Below the pieces are notes generated by a model. That model was not told the origin of the DNA and ran no database searches. It saw only the letters and a list, made by a program, of their open reading frames with translations. A stretch of DNA of 64,000 nt, taken from Spirochaetia bacterium. Lineage in GTDB: Bacteria; Spirochaetota; Leptospiria; Leptospirales; Leptonemataceae. Shown in pieces: positions 47,391 through 55,172 of this stretch (positions are counted from its first letter, which is position 1; every line of letters starts with the position of its first letter). Both the position numbers and the translations under genes were made by a program. The DNA is taken from assembly GCA_009885105.1 (NCBI GenBank), contig VFLI01000066.1, positions 1 to 64,000 on the forward strand. Direction: 5' to 3'.

Positions 47391-47405
47391 TGAGAATGAT
47401 TCTCA
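47391..47405. promoter_or_regulatory. Fur-box-like 7-1-7 inverted repeat upstream of hemA
   Basis: TGAGAAT-G-ATTCTCA is a perfect 7-1-7 palindrome around one central base. It differs from the Fur core TGATAAT-N-ATTATCA at one position in each half. It lies 99 bases before hemA and could also act on the divergent EamA gene. Iron control of heme synthesis would be sensible. Confidence 0.6.
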
Positions 47406-47428
47406 TTTTCGACTAAAATAGACCTCTG

Positions 47429-47444
47429 TGACAACTTTCTGACA
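47429..47444 (+). promoter_or_regulatory. HemR-type site TGACA-N6-TGACA upstream of hemA
   Basis: TGACA at 47429 and TGACA at 47440 are separated by exactly six bases, the motif reported for the HemR regulator of Leptospira. A -10-like TAATAT is at 47467 and hemA starts at 47504. The regulator gene itself closes this operon, so the site suggests self-control of the whole unit. Confidence 0.75.
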
Positions 47445-47503
47445 AATACAATTTCAATCAGTGCTCTAATATAGAAGTTGAGAAGGAATTTCAGTATCTT
47501 GCG

Positions 47504-48748
47504 ATGAAAAACATTGGAACCATTGTGCTGAGTTTTGAAGAAGCGGGCGAGCTGGCCGGCCTTCTTCCGTGGAAGAATGTTGATCGGACTGTTTATTCTC
47601 AGCTCTTTGCAAAAAATCCCTGCCTTTCCGGACTCATTTTATTATCCACCTGCAATCGTGTCGAACTGATTTACAGCCTGAAAGACTCCGCCCGGCACAC
47701 AGATTTTGCGCTCTCTGTAATGGAAACAATGCCCCGCCTTCGTGACGGCATTCGTCCTGCCTTTCTCCAGAGGAAGGAAGCAGTCCGCCATCTGATTCGT
47801 CTGGCCACCGGCCTTGAATCCCTGGTGCTGGGTGAGACGGAAATCAAGGCGCAGATAAAAAACGCTCTCGACGATTCGGAAAAAGAGAATGCTCTTGATT
47901 CTCGTCTGCGAGTTCTGTTCCGCAATATTTTTCATGAAGCAAAAGTAATACGAACCAACATACCGGTCAACTATCTGCCTCTCTCTCTGGCGACGCTGGC
48001 CGTAAAAAAAATTCAGTCACGCGTGAACGATCCGGATGGGATCGTCATAATCGGGTCCGGGCCCATGAGCAGGCAGGCGGCGGAGTATCTGACAAAGTAT
48101 TCCCAGAATTTGATACTCGTCAACCGCACTGTTGATAAAATCGAAGGTCATGCGAAAAGAATCGGAGCTCGTGTTCTTTCATTTGAAGAATTTCTTAACA
48201 ATCCAGAATCGCTTGGAAAAATCCGCGCGATCATAACCGCCACTTCGCGGCAGGACGCTTTTATCACGCCTGAGTTTGTGCAAAAACTGGAAAGAAGCGC
48301 TTCGCTTTTCCTGGTTGACCTTGCTCTGCCGCCGGATGTGGACCCGGCCTGTTCAGAAATTGAAGGCACTCATGTCATTTCTATGGAAACCCTGCGCGAA
48401 GAACTGGAATTGAATCGTCAGAAAAGATCGCAGGCTGCGGCCGGAGCGGACACTCTGATTCATGACGCTGTTTACAGAATTCAGGCTGCCATGATCACGG
48501 GACTTTCCGGACCGGTGCTGAAAAAAATACAGAAGAATGTGCGCGAGAAATCGCGGGCACATCTGGACACACTGCTTGACGGCAGACTGGCGCACCTGAA
48601 CAGCAAAGACAAAAGACTTCTCTACAACTGGGCGATTCAGGCCAATCGCGAACTCAACCGCATCCACAGACAGGGACTGGAAACCGTTCTCAAATACTAC
48701 TACATTCCGGAAAGCATATCCACTGCGGAAGATGCCGCTCAGAACTGA
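47504..48748 (+). CDS. hemA: glutamyl-tRNA reductase
   Basis: A 414-residue HemA. The catalytic C50 is in L-S-T-C-N-R-V-E-L, followed by G-L-E-S-L-V-L-G-E-T-E-I, and the NADPH-binding domain includes I-G-S-G-P-M-S. The C-terminal helical dimer domain ends near L-K-Y-Y-Y. It reduces glutamyl-tRNA to glutamate-1-semialdehyde, the first committed step of the C5 heme route. It is the first gene of an operon with hemCD, hemL and the HemK/HemR pair. Confidence 0.95.
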   Translation: MKNIGTIVLSFEEAGELAGLLPWKNVDRTVYSQLFAKNPCLSGLILLSTCNRVELIYSLKDSARHTDFALSVMETMPRLRDGIRPAFLQRKEAVRHLIRLATGLESLVLGETEIKAQIKNALDDSEKENALDSRLRVLFRNIFHEAKVIRTNIPVNYLPLSLATLAVKKIQSRVNDPDGIVIIGSGPMSRQAAEYLTKYSQNLILVNRTVDKIEGHAKRIGARVLSFEEFLNNPESLGKIRAIITATSRQDAFITPEFVQKLERSASLFLVDLALPPDVDPACSEIEGTHVISMETLREELELNRQKRSQAAAGADTLIHDAVYRIQAAMITGLSGPVLKKIQKNVREKSRAHLDTLLDGRLAHLNSKDKRLLYNWAIQANRELNRIHRQGLETVLKYYYIPESISTAEDAAQN

Positions 48749-48766: not shown

Positions 48767-50473
48767 ATGAAAATACTCCGAATCGGAAGCCGGCCCTCCG
48801 ACCTGGCGATGACACAGAGCCGCTATATTCAAAAAAGAATATCGCAGCTGGCCGGCGCCCCTGAAACAAATATTATCACGATCACAACATCCGGCGACAG
48901 AATTCAGAATGTGCCTCTCTCGCAGGCAGCGACTCCGGATGATCGAAAAGGTTTTTTCACCAAGGAAATCGAAGACGCTCTTCTGGCGGGCGAAATCGAC
49001 GCTGCGGTTCATTCTTACAAAGACCTCCCCACTCTGATGGTGCCTGGACTCACCATCGCCGCCATGCCTCAGAGAGAGATCCAGCATGACATTCTTGTTT
49101 ATGCGCGCGGTAAAAAAATCCTCGGCGATTTTCCCTGGATTGCGCCGGGGTCAAAAATCGGCACGGCATCTGTGCGGCGGGAATCTCTTCTGAAAATGCA
49201 CTGCCCGGATATGATATGCATCCCTCTTCGCGGCAACGTGCCGACGAGAATCCGCAAATTGAAGGAGCGGGCGGATGGAATCGACGCAATACTGCTGGCC
49301 GGGGCCGGTCTCGACCGGCTGAGAACTGCCGGATTTTTTTCAGGCGAGAACGCCAAACTCCTCAATGATCTTGAAATTTCTCCGCTCCCTGTCAGTTTTT
49401 TTGTGCCGGCGCCGGCACAGGGCGCCCTGGGACTTCAGTGCCGCACAGACGACAGCTGGACGCGCGAAATACTCGGCAAGCTCCACAACGCAGCTCTTGC
49501 CGAGACGGTGGCGGCGGAAAGAGAGGTGCTGGCTGCCCTGGAAGGCGGCTGCCATCTGCCGCTGGGCGCACACTGCCGTCTGGAAAATCAAAAATATGTC
49601 ATGAGCATATTTTTAGGAGTGGATGCAAAAGATAACAGAAAAGGAAAATCGTTTTATTTCACCAGAGTATCGCGCGATGCGGCAAGTTTGGCAGAGCATG
49701 TGATTGATGAAATAAAAAAGGATCTGCCCGTTGTTCTGACAGGCCGCCGGGAAAGAATCGAAGAGATTCAGAGAAACTCGAACGGAAAAGTAATACTACC
49801 GCTTCCGCTCATTCAAACCTTGATATTGGAACCGACTGCCGCTCAGAAAGAATCTTTTATCAAAACAGCATCGTCCGGGAAAAAATTCATCCTGGCTGTT
49901 TTCAGCGCTTCCGGCGTCGAATCGTTCCATACCGCGGCTCAAAAATGGCAGAGCGGAAAAAACGCAGATCATCTTTTAACAAATGCTGTTTGGGCAGTAA
50001 CCGGCGCAGAAACAATAAAGAAAATTGAAAAACTTTTCCCGGGGGCGCGGATTGATTTTGTTTCGCCGGATGGAACAGGCGGGGAACTGGCGAAAATTCT
50101 TATCGGATCAAACTCCCCGGCGGGTATAGAAATAATTGCTGTGGGCGCCCGGGAATCAAGACCGGAGTTTGCCGCAGCGATACGGGCCGCCGGGATGACC
50201 GTTCAGGAGCTGATTGTTTACCGGACAGAAAAAATCGAACCGGAAATAAAATCATTGCAGAAAATTCCTGAAGACTGTTACATAATTTTTGGCAGTCCCT
50301 CCGGCGCGGACGCCTTCTTTCCCGCATACAGAAAAACATTTCCGCATTCAAAACCGGGACACAGATTCTGCGCGCTGGGACCGACCACGGCAGACGCACT
50401 GGAAAAGCACGACATTGTTGTTTACGCAAAAAGCCGATCCCCCGATTACGCTCAATTTGTATCTGAACTCTGA
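48767..50473 (+). CDS. hemC: fused porphobilinogen deaminase / uroporphyrinogen-III synthase (HemC-HemD)
   Basis: A 568-residue fusion. Residues 1-310 are HemC: G-S-R-P-S-D-L-A, D-R-K-G-F-F-T-K-E-I-E, H-S-Y-K-D-L-P-T and C262 in E-G-G-C-H-L-P, which binds the dipyrromethane cofactor. Residues about 318-568 are HemD-like (L-T-G-R-R-E-R-I-E, F-S-A-S-G-V-E-S-F, Y-R-T-E-K-I-E-P, F-G-S-P-S-G-A-D-A-F). Together they turn porphobilinogen into uroporphyrinogen III. The same HemCD fusion is known in Leptospira. hemB, which makes the substrate, is not next to it here. Confidence 0.93.
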   Translation: MKILRIGSRPSDLAMTQSRYIQKRISQLAGAPETNIITITTSGDRIQNVPLSQAATPDDRKGFFTKEIEDALLAGEIDAAVHSYKDLPTLMVPGLTIAAMPQREIQHDILVYARGKKILGDFPWIAPGSKIGTASVRRESLLKMHCPDMICIPLRGNVPTRIRKLKERADGIDAILLAGAGLDRLRTAGFFSGENAKLLNDLEISPLPVSFFVPAPAQGALGLQCRTDDSWTREILGKLHNAALAETVAAEREVLAALEGGCHLPLGAHCRLENQKYVMSIFLGVDAKDNRKGKSFYFTRVSRDAASLAEHVIDEIKKDLPVVLTGRRERIEEIQRNSNGKVILPLPLIQTLILEPTAAQKESFIKTASSGKKFILAVFSASGVESFHTAAQKWQSGKNADHLLTNAVWAVTGAETIKKIEKLFPGARIDFVSPDGTGGELAKILIGSNSPAGIEIIAVGARESRPEFAAAIRAAGMTVQELIVYRTEKIEPEIKSLQKIPEDCYIIFGSPSGADAFFPAYRKTFPHSKPGHRFCALGPTTADALEKHDIVVYAKSRSPDYAQFVSEL

Positions 50474-50484
50474 CAGGCGGCAGC

Positions 50485-51762
50485 ATGAAAACAAACGCAT
50501 CCGAAGAATTATTCCAGCGGGCCCTTAAAGTCATCCCCGGCGGTGTGAACAGCCCGGTGCGGGCATTTCGTTCCGTGGGCGGAAATCCGATTTTCATGAA
50601 ATCCGGCAGCGGGCACCGTATTGTGGATCAGGACGAAAACGTGTATGTCGATTTCTGCAATTCCTGGGGACCGCTCATCTGCGGACATCGCCATCCTGAA
50701 ATCCTGGCCGCCATCCGGGATCAGATTGACAGAGCTCTCACTTTCGGCACACCCTGCGAACAGGAAGTGCTGCTGGCGGAGTATATTATTTCCCGTCTTC
50801 GTCCTCTCGTCTCCACAATAGAAAAAATTCGATTCGTGAATTCCGGCACAGAAGCGGTGATGAGCGCTCTTCGTCTGGCGCGGGGTTTTACAGGACGCAA
50901 TAAAATCATCAAATTCGACGGCTGCTACCACGGACACAGCGACGGCCTGCTGGTCAAAGCCGGCTCAGGTCTTGCGACACTGGGAACGCCGGACTCGGCG
51001 GGGGTTCCGGAAGGTTTTACAAATGAATCGATCGTTCTTCCTCTGGCCGATACGGGGGCCCTGGATGCAGCCTTCGCAAAACACGGAAGGGACATCGCCG
51101 CGGTGATCATCGAAGGAGTGCCGGCCAACAACGGACTTTTAATACAGACTCCGGAATACATCAAATATTTAAGAAATATTACAGAAGAAAACGGATCGCT
51201 GCTGATCTTTGACGAAGTGATCACCGGTTTCCGGCTGGGTTTCGGCGGGGCTGCAGTTCACTACGGGATCAAACCGGACCTGGCGGCGTACGGGAAGATC
51301 ATCGGCGGCGGTATGCCGGTGGGAGCCTTTGCCGGAAGATCCGATATTTTCAAACACCTGGCGCCGGACGGACCGGTCTATCAGGCGGGCACTCTCAGCG
51401 GCAATCCGGTGGCGATGGCGGCTGGCCTGGCGCAGCTGCGTCTTCTCGACGATTCTCTCTACGAAAAAATAAGCGGCGTCGGCAAGATTCTGGAAGATAG
51501 CGTGAATGAGGCCCGTCTGGACTGGAAAATCGCCCGTATCGGATCCATTTTCTGGTTCCATCGCGGAGAAACACCGGCCAGAGCGGACAAAATCGAGCGC
51601 GAAAGCATGAAAGAGTATGCCGGTCTCCACCGGCGATGCCTGGAAAAAGGACTGTATCTGGCGCCCTCCGGTTATGAAGTCGGATTCATCAGCTCTCCCA
51701 TGAAAGAAGAGGATGCCGCTCTTCTGGCGGATGTCGCCGTGAATTTTTTCCGATCCCGATGA
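50485..51762 (+). CDS. hemL: glutamate-1-semialdehyde 2,1-aminomutase
   Basis: A 425-residue PLP enzyme: P-G-G-V-N-S-P-V-R-A-F, N-S-G-T-E-A-V-M-S, C-Y-H-G-H-S-D-G, F-D-E-V-I-T-G-F-R, and K271 in Y-G-K-I-I-G-G-G-M-P-V-G-A-F as the Schiff-base lysine. It converts glutamate-1-semialdehyde to 5-aminolevulinate. The stop overlaps the kinase gene start as ATGA. Confidence 0.95.
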   Translation: MKTNASEELFQRALKVIPGGVNSPVRAFRSVGGNPIFMKSGSGHRIVDQDENVYVDFCNSWGPLICGHRHPEILAAIRDQIDRALTFGTPCEQEVLLAEYIISRLRPLVSTIEKIRFVNSGTEAVMSALRLARGFTGRNKIIKFDGCYHGHSDGLLVKAGSGLATLGTPDSAGVPEGFTNESIVLPLADTGALDAAFAKHGRDIAAVIIEGVPANNGLLIQTPEYIKYLRNITEENGSLLIFDEVITGFRLGFGGAAVHYGIKPDLAAYGKIIGGGMPVGAFAGRSDIFKHLAPDGPVYQAGTLSGNPVAMAAGLAQLRLLDDSLYEKISGVGKILEDSVNEARLDWKIARIGSIFWFHRGETPARADKIERESMKEYAGLHRRCLEKGLYLAPSGYEVGFISSPMKEEDAALLADVAVNFFRSR

Positions 51763-52841
51763 TAAAAATATTTCAATTCAGAACCGGCACATTTAAGAAT
51801 AAAAGGCGCATACTCGCTGTGAGCGCGCTGCTGGCTCTGCTGTTTGTCCAGCTTTCCTGGTGGCTGGTATTTTTTGAATCCAACCGAAAAGAATACGATC
51901 TTCTTCAAAATCAGATCGACCAGATCAGCCTTCGCGATTCGCAGAAACTCCCCGACAGCCGTCTGCCGCCCGATATCATCCGGCAATCTGGAAAACTTGT
52001 CATCAGACCGGAAGTGCTGGATAAAAGACGCCGCGAGCATCGACGAAAAATAATGATGCTGATATCAGAGACAATATTTGTTCTCTCCGTGATAACGTAC
52101 GGCTCCTACAGAATCATCCGTTCCATGCAGGCGCAGATTCGACTGGGCGAAGAGCGCGATATTTTTTTAAACTCTGTCAGTCATGAACTGAAAACTCCCA
52201 TCGCGTCAATCTTATTGAATGCGCAGACGATGATTAAACGAGATATGCCGCGGCAAAAGCGCACAGAGCTTCTGGAGGAGAGCATTGCGGAGGCCAGAAG
52301 ACTGGAGGATCAGGTCGGCAATCTTCTGCTGAGCCGGGAACTGGGCAGGAAGAAATTCGTGGGGGGGCCGCTTCAGACTGTGGATGCGGCATCCGCTGTC
52401 CGGAGTTTTCTGGACAGAAATCAGATACTGATCCGCCGGGAAGATGTCCGTATCGATGTGCAGATGCCGGAAAAAGTGATTCTGGCTCTGGATAAAGAAC
52501 TGTTTTCAAAAATACTGGGGAATCTGCTGCAGAATTCTATTTCCTATTCAACCGGGAAGCCGTTTATAAAAATACGCCTGTCAGTCGAATCAAAGTTTTA
52601 CCGCAAGTCCGCTGTCCTGGAATTTGCCGATAACGGATCGGGCATCCCGAAAGAAGAACTGGAAAATATTTTCAAGCCGTTTTACAGATTGTCCAATGAC
52701 AGGGGAGTGGTGCGCGGCACTGGACTCGGTCTTCATATCGTGCGGCAAATACTGATAAATGCCGGAGGCACGATCGGGGCGGAATCGGAAGGTCCGGGCC
52801 GCGGAACAGTCTTTACATTGAGACTCCCCCTGGCCGCATAG
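51759..52841 (+). CDS. hemK: heme-operon sensor histidine kinase (HemK of HemKR)
   Basis: A 360-residue sensor kinase with two membrane helices (about 19-38 and 98-115) around a short periplasmic loop, HisKA with H142 in S-V-S-H-E-L-K-T-P-I-A, and an ATPase domain with N-L-L-Q-N-S-I-S-Y-S, D-N-G-S-G-I and G-T-G-L-G-L-H-I-V. Its position after hemL and before an OmpR-type regulator matches HemK of Leptospira, which controls heme genes. The name is shared with an unrelated methyltransferase. The start overlaps hemL by four bases. Confidence 0.88.
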   Translation: MIKIFQFRTGTFKNKRRILAVSALLALLFVQLSWWLVFFESNRKEYDLLQNQIDQISLRDSQKLPDSRLPPDIIRQSGKLVIRPEVLDKRRREHRRKIMMLISETIFVLSVITYGSYRIIRSMQAQIRLGEERDIFLNSVSHELKTPIASILLNAQTMIKRDMPRQKRTELLEESIAEARRLEDQVGNLLLSRELGRKKFVGGPLQTVDAASAVRSFLDRNQILIRREDVRIDVQMPEKVILALDKELFSKILGNLLQNSISYSTGKPFIKIRLSVESKFYRKSAVLEFADNGSGIPKEELENIFKPFYRLSNDRGVVRGTGLGLHIVRQILINAGGTIGAESEGPGRGTVFTLRLPLAA

Positions 52842-52847
52842 ATAATT

Positions 52848-53543
52848 ATGAACAAGAGAACAAAAAAACAGAATATTCTGCTGGTCGAAGATGAAGCTCC
52901 GCTTAGAAAAGGAATACGCTTGAATCTGGAGGCAGAGGGATTTGCCGTAACCGATTTTTCGGACGCGGCCAGCGCGCTGGAGGGTCTCGCGGATGCGCCG
53001 GATTTTTCTCTGGGCATTCTGGATATAATGATGCCCGGGAAAATCGACGGGCTGGAACTGTGCAAAAAAATTCGAGAGAGAAAACTTTTCTTTCCTGTTA
53101 TATTTCTAACGGCCCGGACGGATATAAAGGACAAACTGGAAGCCTTCCGGTCCGGCGCTGACGACTACATCACAAAGCCTTTTGACCTGGAGGAGCTGCT
53201 GGCCCGCGTCAGCGCGCGGCTTCGTAAAAAACCCCTGGACACCGTAACAATTGGAGATTTCACGCTCGATATGGAATCGGGCACGGCCGTGTCCGGCGGA
53301 AAAACCAAACGATTCAACGAAAGAGAACTGATCATTCTTTCTCTGCTGGTGGAGAATCGGGGGCGCCCTGTTACCCGTGACCAGATACTGGACAGCGCCT
53401 GGAGCACCGCAGAGTTTCCGACGAACAGGACCGTCGACAATTTCATAGTTAAATTTCGTAAAATTTTCGAGCCCGATCCGGCCAATCCCCGCCATTTTAT
53501 CACACGATTCGGCGTGGGTTACGAACTTTCCGCTGAAGAGTGA
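52848..53543 (+). CDS. hemR: heme-operon response regulator (HemR)
   Basis: A 231-residue OmpR-family regulator with phospho-acceptor D59 in I-L-D-I-M-M-P-G, K in Y-I-T-K-P-F and a winged-helix domain (N-R-T-V-D-N-F-I-V-K-F-R-K ... F-G-V-G-Y-E-L). It follows the kinase after six bases. The hemA promoter carries the TGACA-N6-TGACA motif reported for HemR of Leptospira, so it probably regulates its own operon. Confidence 0.9.
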   Translation: MNKRTKKQNILLVEDEAPLRKGIRLNLEAEGFAVTDFSDAASALEGLADAPDFSLGILDIMMPGKIDGLELCKKIRERKLFFPVIFLTARTDIKDKLEAFRSGADDYITKPFDLEELLARVSARLRKKPLDTVTIGDFTLDMESGTAVSGGKTKRFNERELIILSLLVENRGRPVTRDQILDSAWSTAEFPTNRTVDNFIVKFRKIFEPDPANPRHFITRFGVGYELSAEE

Positions 53544-53591
53544 CTGGAATCGCGTTTACATAAATACGGGCTCTGCTTATCTTAGTATTCT

Positions 53592-55172
53592 ATGCAGTAT
53601 CAATTAGAGCTGGAAATCAGAGGGGAAAGGGCCACGAACAAACTGCGGCTGTTTCTTCTAATAATATTTGCGGCGTCCACGGCCTTCAGCTATTTCCTGG
53701 GCAATACAAAAGGTGTGACGGAATACTTTCTGGCCGGAAATTTGTTTTATGCGGCCTCTCCGGTAGTATCGCTGATTTACCTGTATTCGAAAAAGTTCAA
53801 TTCCAATGTGAAATATTTCTGCCTGCCTCTGGAACTGATCGGCCTGTTTATTGTGCTGTACAGCAATCTACTTTTACCAGAGGTCAACTGGACCGTTGCC
53901 GTTAAGAGTCCCACTTTTTTTGCTATTTATTTTCTTTTTATTGGAGAGGCATTGCTGCGTTTCTCGCCCAGATTTTCCATCATTACGGGCCTGGGCTGCG
54001 CTGTAGTATACAGCGCTATATACATTATTCTGCTGACAACTCCCGGTATCAAACTTCTGTCTGAGAGCGCTTCTCTGTTCGATCCCAGAGGAGTTTCTAT
54101 CACCGACTGGGTGATCGGAACGGTCTTTCTGCTTGCGATGAGCATTGTGCTGGCGGTCGCAACCGGTTATGTCCGCGATCTGGTAACCAGGTCGGCCAGC
54201 TCGGAAACTACGGCCCGCGAGAATTTAAAGAAGCTCACAGAACTCATGTCAGAGAACCGCGCAACAGTCGCCAATATCAATTCATCGGTCACAAAAATCG
54301 ACGCAACAGCCGTTGCCAACGAAAGTCTCAGCCAGGAACAGCTCGCCGCGGTGGAAGAAACTTCCGCCACAATGGAAGAGTTGAGCGCGTCGATAAAATC
54401 CATCGCAACAATGGCAAAGAAACAGGATGAACTCGCGGAAAAAAGCGACAGCGCCATGGATCAGCTCAACGGGATGGTCCGTGGAGTGGAAAACCTGAGC
54501 CATGAAAATGCGGATAATGGAAACCAGACGCTCGAAAGAGCCGTAAAAGGGGAGAAAGAACTGACGCACGCCGGGGAAGTAATCCGGAGGATTCAGGAAG
54601 GCTCGCGGCAGGTGGGTGAAATAGTTACTGTCATCAACAGCATCGCGGACCGCACAAATCTCCTTGCGCTGAATGCGGCCATTGAGGCTGCACGGGCCGG
54701 CGCCGAGGGAAGAGGCTTTTCCGTTGTTGCGGATGAAGTAGGGAAACTGGCTGAAATGTCCAGCAAGAACGCCCGCAGCATTGAAAAACTGATTCAGGAA
54801 ACAAATTCTGTTACCCAGACCGGCGTGAAATCCATCGATGAAACTTTTATCGCAATCAAAAGTATAATTGAAGGAATTAAAAACATGGTCCGCATCACGG
54901 GAGAAGTCCATGAGCTGATCAAAGAATCGGGCAAAGCATTTGCCGCCATAACCGACGATATGAAAAAAATACAGATGATGTCGCGGGATATGCGCATGGC
55001 AACGGAGGAGCAGCTGGGCGGAACGCAGGAAATTATAAAAGCCATCGATTCCATCAACACCAGCGCCGAGAAATTTGTGCAGACATCGGCGTCATTGCGT
55101 CTTTCTATGTCCTCGCTGGAAGAGGCGAACAGGCGGCTCGGGGATAAAATTTCAACCGCTTCCCTGGCCTGA
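53592..55172 (+). CDS. methyl-accepting chemotaxis protein with multi-pass N-terminus
   Basis: A 526-residue chemoreceptor. The first 200 residues contain six membrane helices without a large periplasmic ligand domain. The signalling domain follows with a coiled coil and the conserved hairpin tip R-T-N-L-L-A-L-N-A-A-I-E-A-A-R-A-G (about residue 353) and G-R-G-F-S-V-V-A-D-E-V-G-K-L-A-E. It probably senses a membrane or intracellular signal and controls CheA. Six-span receptors of this type are common in leptospires. Confidence 0.9.
   Translation: MQYQLELEIRGERATNKLRLFLLIIFAASTAFSYFLGNTKGVTEYFLAGNLFYAASPVVSLIYLYSKKFNSNVKYFCLPLELIGLFIVLYSNLLLPEVNWTVAVKSPTFFAIYFLFIGEALLRFSPRFSIITGLGCAVVYSAIYIILLTTPGIKLLSESASLFDPRGVSITDWVIGTVFLLAMSIVLAVATGYVRDLVTRSASSETTARENLKKLTELMSENRATVANINSSVTKIDATAVANESLSQEQLAAVEETSATMEELSASIKSIATMAKKQDELAEKSDSAMDQLNGMVRGVENLSHENADNGNQTLERAVKGEKELTHAGEVIRRIQEGSRQVGEIVTVINSIADRTNLLALNAAIEAARAGAEGRGFSVVADEVGKLAEMSSKNARSIEKLIQETNSVTQTGVKSIDETFIAIKSIIEGIKNMVRITGEVHELIKESGKAFAAITDDMKKIQMMSRDMRMATEEQLGGTQEIIKAIDSINTSAEKFVQTSASLRLSMSSLEEANRRLGDKISTASLA

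Follow-up and report, generated by a model that had tools for sequence, protein, structure and literature searches.

A predicted composite promoter for heme biosynthesis in Leptospirales, with a HemR operator and a putative Fur-type iron box in conserved register

The region in front of hemA in this spirochaete raises the question of whether iron and heme signals meet at a single promoter. The window, that is, the whole stretch of 64,000 nucleotides that we analysed, was thought to carry a perfect 7-1-7 palindrome 23 bp upstream of an exact TGACA-N6-TGACA motif, and this arrangement was confirmed. The palindrome, TGAGAAT-G-ATTCTCA (TGAGAATGATTCTCA), occupies positions 47391 to 47405, with no strand assigned, and we refer to it as the iron box, a putative Fur-type operator. 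The hem-box, TGACA-ACTTTC-TGACA (TGACAACTTTCTGACA), lies at positions 47429 to 47444 on the + strand and is a predicted HemR operator according to the motif defined in PMC11426443. The gap between them is 23 bp (47406-47428), and the two sites are found 98 and 59 bp, respectively, before the hemA start codon. Column information points to an extended -10 element, TGC-TCTAAT, on the + strand at 47462 to 47470, 20 bp after the hem-box. Counted from the transcription start that we infer from this element, the centre of the palindrome would be at about -79 and that of the hem-box at about -40, where it would occupy the place of a -35 element. Both sites are far above chance, and neither has a second exact copy anywhere in the 3.6-Mb assembly: there is one exact hem-box, against four copies of the reversed control pattern, and TGAGAATNATTCTCA also has a single exact copy, with 42 sites at up to two mismatches against 3 for the reversed control.

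Behind both sites there is an operon that ends with hemK and hemR, as had been described, and all of its genes are on the + strand. It begins with hemA, encoding glutamyl-tRNA reductase (47504..48748; PF05201 above the cut-off, and TIGR01035 at 8e-50, which is below its curated cut-off), and continues with a hemC/hemD fusion for hydroxymethylbilane synthase and uroporphyrinogen-III synthase (48767..50473; TIGR00212 above the cut-off, and PF02602) and with hemL for glutamate-1-semialdehyde aminomutase (50485..51762; NF000818 above the cut-off). The last two genes are hemK, for a membrane sensor histidine kinase with HisKA and HATPase_c domains (51759..52841), and hemR, for an OmpR/PhoB-type response regulator (52848..53543). 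The kinase is 23% identical to L. interrogans HemK and has the same operon position, and in both proteins a threonine of the phosphatase motif stands four residues after the histidine (HELKT in the window and HEMKT in L. interrogans HemK). In the stretch from 53543 to 55172, a chemotaxis receptor gene follows hemR where several relatives have hemE, and the window operon lacks hemB as well as hemE.

The identity of the regulator could not be settled by percent identity alone, given that some paralogs are as close to L. interrogans HemR as the window protein is, at about 35% (35-37%); the tree and the recognition helix decided. A HemR clade of 22 of the 40 regulators, with a FastTree support of 0.98 in a sample that includes few paralogs, unites the window protein with L. 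interrogans HemR. Its members have the helix FPTNRT[IV]DNxIV, unlike the PhoB-type paralogs, and the window protein shares the common FPTNRT-DN-IV pattern. Judged by these two features, the window regulator is a true HemR relative. The feedback that the original prediction attached to this regulator would apply to a subset of genomes only, as the window and at least five relatives have hemKR inside the hemA operon, but in G005 and at least the four g2 genomes hemL-hemK-hemR forms a separate locus that lacks an exact hem-box. In other relatives, hemKR and hemA are on different contigs.

A search with the window HemA, in a phylogenetic sample that covers one order, returned one orthologue in each of 16 genomes of the same family, for a total of 17 promoters from nine genera. 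All 17 promoters of this hemA type carry an exact hem-box in one orientation, and each also has TGAGAnTnAnTCTCA, or a version of it whose left half has decayed, with its first base 38 or 39 bp upstream of the hem-box, leaving 23 to 24 bases between the sites. The HemR site is thus conserved outside Leptospira, as had been suggested, and both sites have survived in the close relatives. Within the 60 bp before the hem-box, the best iron-box match always stands at -38/-39, with scores of 11.8 to 26.3 bits that are above the threshold of 9.0 bits (the 99.9th percentile of shuffled sequences) in every promoter and reach at least 18 bits in 13 of them; the left half of the palindrome is degenerate in three g4 and three g3 promoters. 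Among 30 genomes of the order, the pattern TCTCA-N22..31-hem-box is present in 18, in 17 of these at hemA, and the reversed pattern in only one. The column information of the 17 promoters reveals no conservation between or around the two sites, and since the sites are kept while the sequence that surrounds them is not, selection rather than recent descent explains their presence. A TGnTAnnnT block also begins in the relatives about 19-20 bp past the hem-box, a distance that fits an extended -10 element.

The palindrome had been described as close to the Fur consensus. Its ends, TGA...TCA in a 7-1-7 inverted repeat, have the layout of a Fur box, and of the 14 positions that are fixed in the Fur 7-1-7 core, TGATAATNATTATCA, it matches 12, but the element conserved across the relatives is the lineage variant TGAGAnTnAnTCTCA. 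A textbook Fur box was considered as the conserved element and rejected, as the relatives keep TGAGA-N5-TCTCA and the inner AAT-N-ATT is not fixed. In eight more distant hemA promoters, of a Leptospira-like type, the iron box was not found and the hem-box is retained. Two types of hemA, of about 290 and 415 aa and with matching HemR lineages, occur within one family (L263 and L264 in G008 and G012 versus the other genomes of the same family), and the iron box accompanies the long type, of about 415 aa.

What the palindrome responds to can be approached through its other occurrences. In the relatives, TGAGAnTnAnTCTCA is enriched, for example with 9, 9, 8 and 7 sites against 0-1 for the reversed control. 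We read the neighbouring genes at 56 sites of this type outside hemA promoters, and about 32 of them adjoin iron or heme genes. These neighbours include feoA-feoB, bfd-bfr, and genes for HiPIP, imelysin and rubrerythrin, as well as hmuT, for a heme-type binding protein (Peripla_BP_2), and HmuY with a TonB receptor, and in some cases the heme oxygenase gene hmuO, behind it. Because TGAGAnTnAnTCTCA precedes iron and heme genes elsewhere, the palindrome appears to mark an iron regulon, of which the window's own assembly has a single recognised target, a porin-like gene. Furthermore, in Enterococcus faecalis the identical 15-mer is listed as the Fur site of an iron transporter operon that is repressed by Fur and derepressed in a fur mutant (PMC6056675). 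The meeting of iron and heme signals that was originally proposed is therefore very probable, given this regulon and a true HemR relative, with feedback confined to the subset of genomes described above. Two kinds of proteins without a Pfam match were also observed behind iron boxes. One, of about 530 aa, recurs at L216, L225, L233, L238 and L245 and in the window's own genome at C80:18920 (L004), and is a candidate for a new iron-regulated outer-membrane protein; the other is a short Cys-rich protein of 70-80 aa (L240, L243 and similar) encoded 50 bp behind the box in two g3 genomes.

With regard to the protein that reads the palindrome, the window and all intact sites have G at position 2, the base of Fur boxes, and not the T of PerR-like TTA...TAA boxes. 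Each of the 16 other genomes with this promoter encodes a canonical Fur whose helix H4 has Arg and whose metal site is HHDH-CxxCG; the rule that relates the H4 residue to Fur or PerR specificity is that of PMC8638851. Canonical Fur was not found in the window's own assembly, which is 78% complete, and its gene may sit in the missing part. The sole Fur-family member there is a PerRA/Irr-like protein without cysteines (C40:96019-96318; G000, L017), whose gene and the hem operon share a contig, with PerRA and Irr as its best NCBIfam matches and Asn at the H4 specificity position. A box of the TTA...TAA type, TTAGAATAATTTTAA, precedes the orthologous gene in several relatives, and one such gene, in G006, has a near match to the iron box, TGAGACCAATTCTCA. 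As to fur autoregulation, no near iron-box match was found upstream of the canonical fur genes. From the G at position 2 and the Arg-type Fur of the relatives, Fur would be the likeliest binder of the palindrome.

On these grounds, we consider it probable that this is a composite heme-biosynthesis promoter, on which HemR would act at the hem-box and a Fur-family repressor, most likely Fur itself, at the palindrome. Phosphorylated HemR, the product of the operon's last genes, would bind near -40, replace the -35 element, and help RNA polymerase to use the extended -10 located 19-20 bp downstream. The iron-loaded repressor would bind near -79 and tune expression to iron supply. Our preferred sign of this control is that Fe-Fur would hold hemA down and iron shortage or peroxide would release it, raising hemA, with HemR as the activator. 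Given that the register of 38/39 bp is fixed, the two proteins may contact each other or compete on the same face of a short DNA segment.

A comparison with L. interrogans was made on one 350-kb replicon, NZ_CP020413.2, which carries the hem operon, hmuO and the HmuY-TonB receptor operon. It contains only two exact hem-boxes, at hmuO and hemA, and these are the published HemR targets (PMC11426443). With a weight matrix built from the 56 sites, from which hemA promoters and L. interrogans sequences were excluded, the first rank on this replicon went to the hemA promoter, with TGAAAATTAGTCTCA at 20.8 bits and 45 bp upstream of the hem-box. The hmuO promoter came second with a weak match, at 16.7 bits where the training sites have a median of 27.6, and the stretch ahead of the HmuY-TonB receptor operon came fourth. 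The third rank was an intergenic site at 52629 (L388), between SDR oxidoreductase and M61 peptidase genes, with no clear target.

Published work provides several observations that bear on the sign of the control. In L. biflexa, phosphorylated HemR activates the hem operon and represses hmuO; iron depletion lowers the hem operon in the wild type, a fall that depends on HemKR, and raises it 2.5-fold, through an unidentified factor, in a strain without hemKR (PMC11426443). The switch of HemK from kinase to phosphatase by ALA or porphyrin is published for L. biflexa only (PMC11426443). In L. interrogans, peroxide raises the hem genes independently of PerR (PMC7567364), and no regulated genes emerged when canonical Fur and PerR boxes were searched for (PMC3953431, PMC8638967). 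Restraint of hemA by Fe-Fur would fit the activation by HemR, the 2.5-fold rise and the peroxide effect, with the L. biflexa promoter lying outside this comparison. A wider proposal, on which our belief and our doubt are evenly balanced, is that Leptospirales, including L. interrogans, possess a true Fur regulon, which escaped notice because TGAGAnTnAnTCTCA serves as its box. Fur and HemR would then jointly control hemA, hmuO and the hmuY-TonB receptor operon, and the Fur-family protein with Arg in H4 (LIMLP_04825 type) would be the iron regulator of the hem operon.

Other readings of the two sites deserve consideration. Simple steric repressors would not usually bind at -79, upstream of an activator, which leaves room for co-activation: Fe-Fur could assist HemR or the polymerase from the same palindrome, and heme would be made only when iron is available. 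The fixed spacing between the box and the activator site, as well as the fall of the hem operon in iron-depleted wild-type L. biflexa (PMC11426443), would suit such a role, but that fall needs HemKR, without which the operon rises on iron depletion (PMC11426443), and in L. interrogans the hem genes rise, without involvement of PerR, under peroxide, which inactivates Fe-Fur (PMC7567364). We regard co-activation as rather unlikely, though worth keeping in mind. It is unlikely to a greater degree that the palindrome is bound by the PerRA/Irr-like protein (C40:96019), sensing peroxide or heme rather than iron. This protein is the only Fur-family candidate in the assembly, PerRA and Irr are the NCBIfam models that it matches best, and a passage of PMC8638967 cites control of heme synthesis by Irr in alphaproteobacteria; yet the hem genes of L. 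interrogans do not depend on PerR (PMC7567364). Asn at the PerR-type H4 position, the TTA...TAA boxes near its own gene in relatives, and the presence of canonical Fur in each of the 16 relatives that have this promoter likewise speak against it.

The palindrome also fits TGA-N9-TCA, which is the operator (IRO motif) of RirA, and an unrelated iron regulator such as this Rrf2-type protein could read it. A RirA-like protein has indeed been noted in L. interrogans (PMC8638967). The conserved inner positions (A 5, T 7, A 9 and T 11) are nevertheless those of the Fur 7-1-7 core, and we consider this reading highly improbable. Doubt about the hem-box itself could come from the Pho box, as TGTCA-N6-TGTCA, the core of the latter, is the reverse complement of TGACA-N6-TGACA, and a Pho box or generic OmpR-type site would thus have a similar core. 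The window happens to contain a Pho regulon, between 9093 and 28490, with phoB (9953), a phoR-like kinase gene (10744), a TonB receptor gene (14436), pstS (24004), pstC and pstA/pstB; TGTCAT-N5-TGTAA stands before at least six transcription units, with three overlapping copies before 28517. With this regulon as a control, the Pho box was rejected, since orientation and half-site differ: the window's own Pho boxes (10 sites against 0.7 expected) run the opposite way. Moreover, the window PhoB has another recognition helix (DRTVDVNIKRLR), and the hem-box is single in the genome, with a fixed orientation at hemA in 17 genomes, all of which makes a Pho-type site very hard to sustain. We give the least credence of all to an RNA hairpin, as a terminator or leader element, or to a chance repeat. 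As RNA, the palindrome can fold (-7.7 kcal/mol, z -3.5), and T's follow it, but no terminator-like site was found, its position upstream of the inferred -10 would place it outside the hemA mRNA, no + strand gene ends there, and the same word recurs before iron genes elsewhere.

If the composite promoter with Fur and HemR is the correct reading, it would be a case of two metal/heme inputs in fixed register on one promoter across genera, and this comparison now offers a concrete consensus for the operator, a set of predicted targets and a named candidate protein where canonical-box searches found nothing. Among known systems, the HemKR system of Leptospira shares with this locus the exact TGACA-N6-TGACA before hemA, the position of hemK-hemR beside hem genes as in L. 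interrogans, and a HemR of the same clade with a common recognition helix. In contrast, the window proteins are only about 35% (HemR) and 23% (HemK) identical, the Leptospira HemA has 289 aa rather than 414, with 25% identity over 122 residues, and the window operon is without hemB and hemE; the iron box is clear at 38/39 bp in the window type and stands at 45 bp with one mismatch in L. interrogans. The Pho box and PhoB offer a similar 11-bp direct repeat for an OmpR-type regulator, but in the opposite orientation and with another half-site (TGTCAT-N5-TGTAA in the window). The TTA...TAA boxes of PerR and Irr, including those before Leptospira perRA, have the same Fur-family 7-1-7 layout, and differ in that position 2 is G rather than T in the window and that the TTA type is found near the PerRA/Irr-like genes of relatives. 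With the Fur box of E. faecalis, the locus has in common the identical 15-mer, a related feoAB site, TGAGAACGATTCTCA (PMC6056675), and a regulon of iron genes; in this order, by contrast, the core drifts to TGAGAnTnAnTCTCA, and the box stands before hemA, upstream of an activator site.
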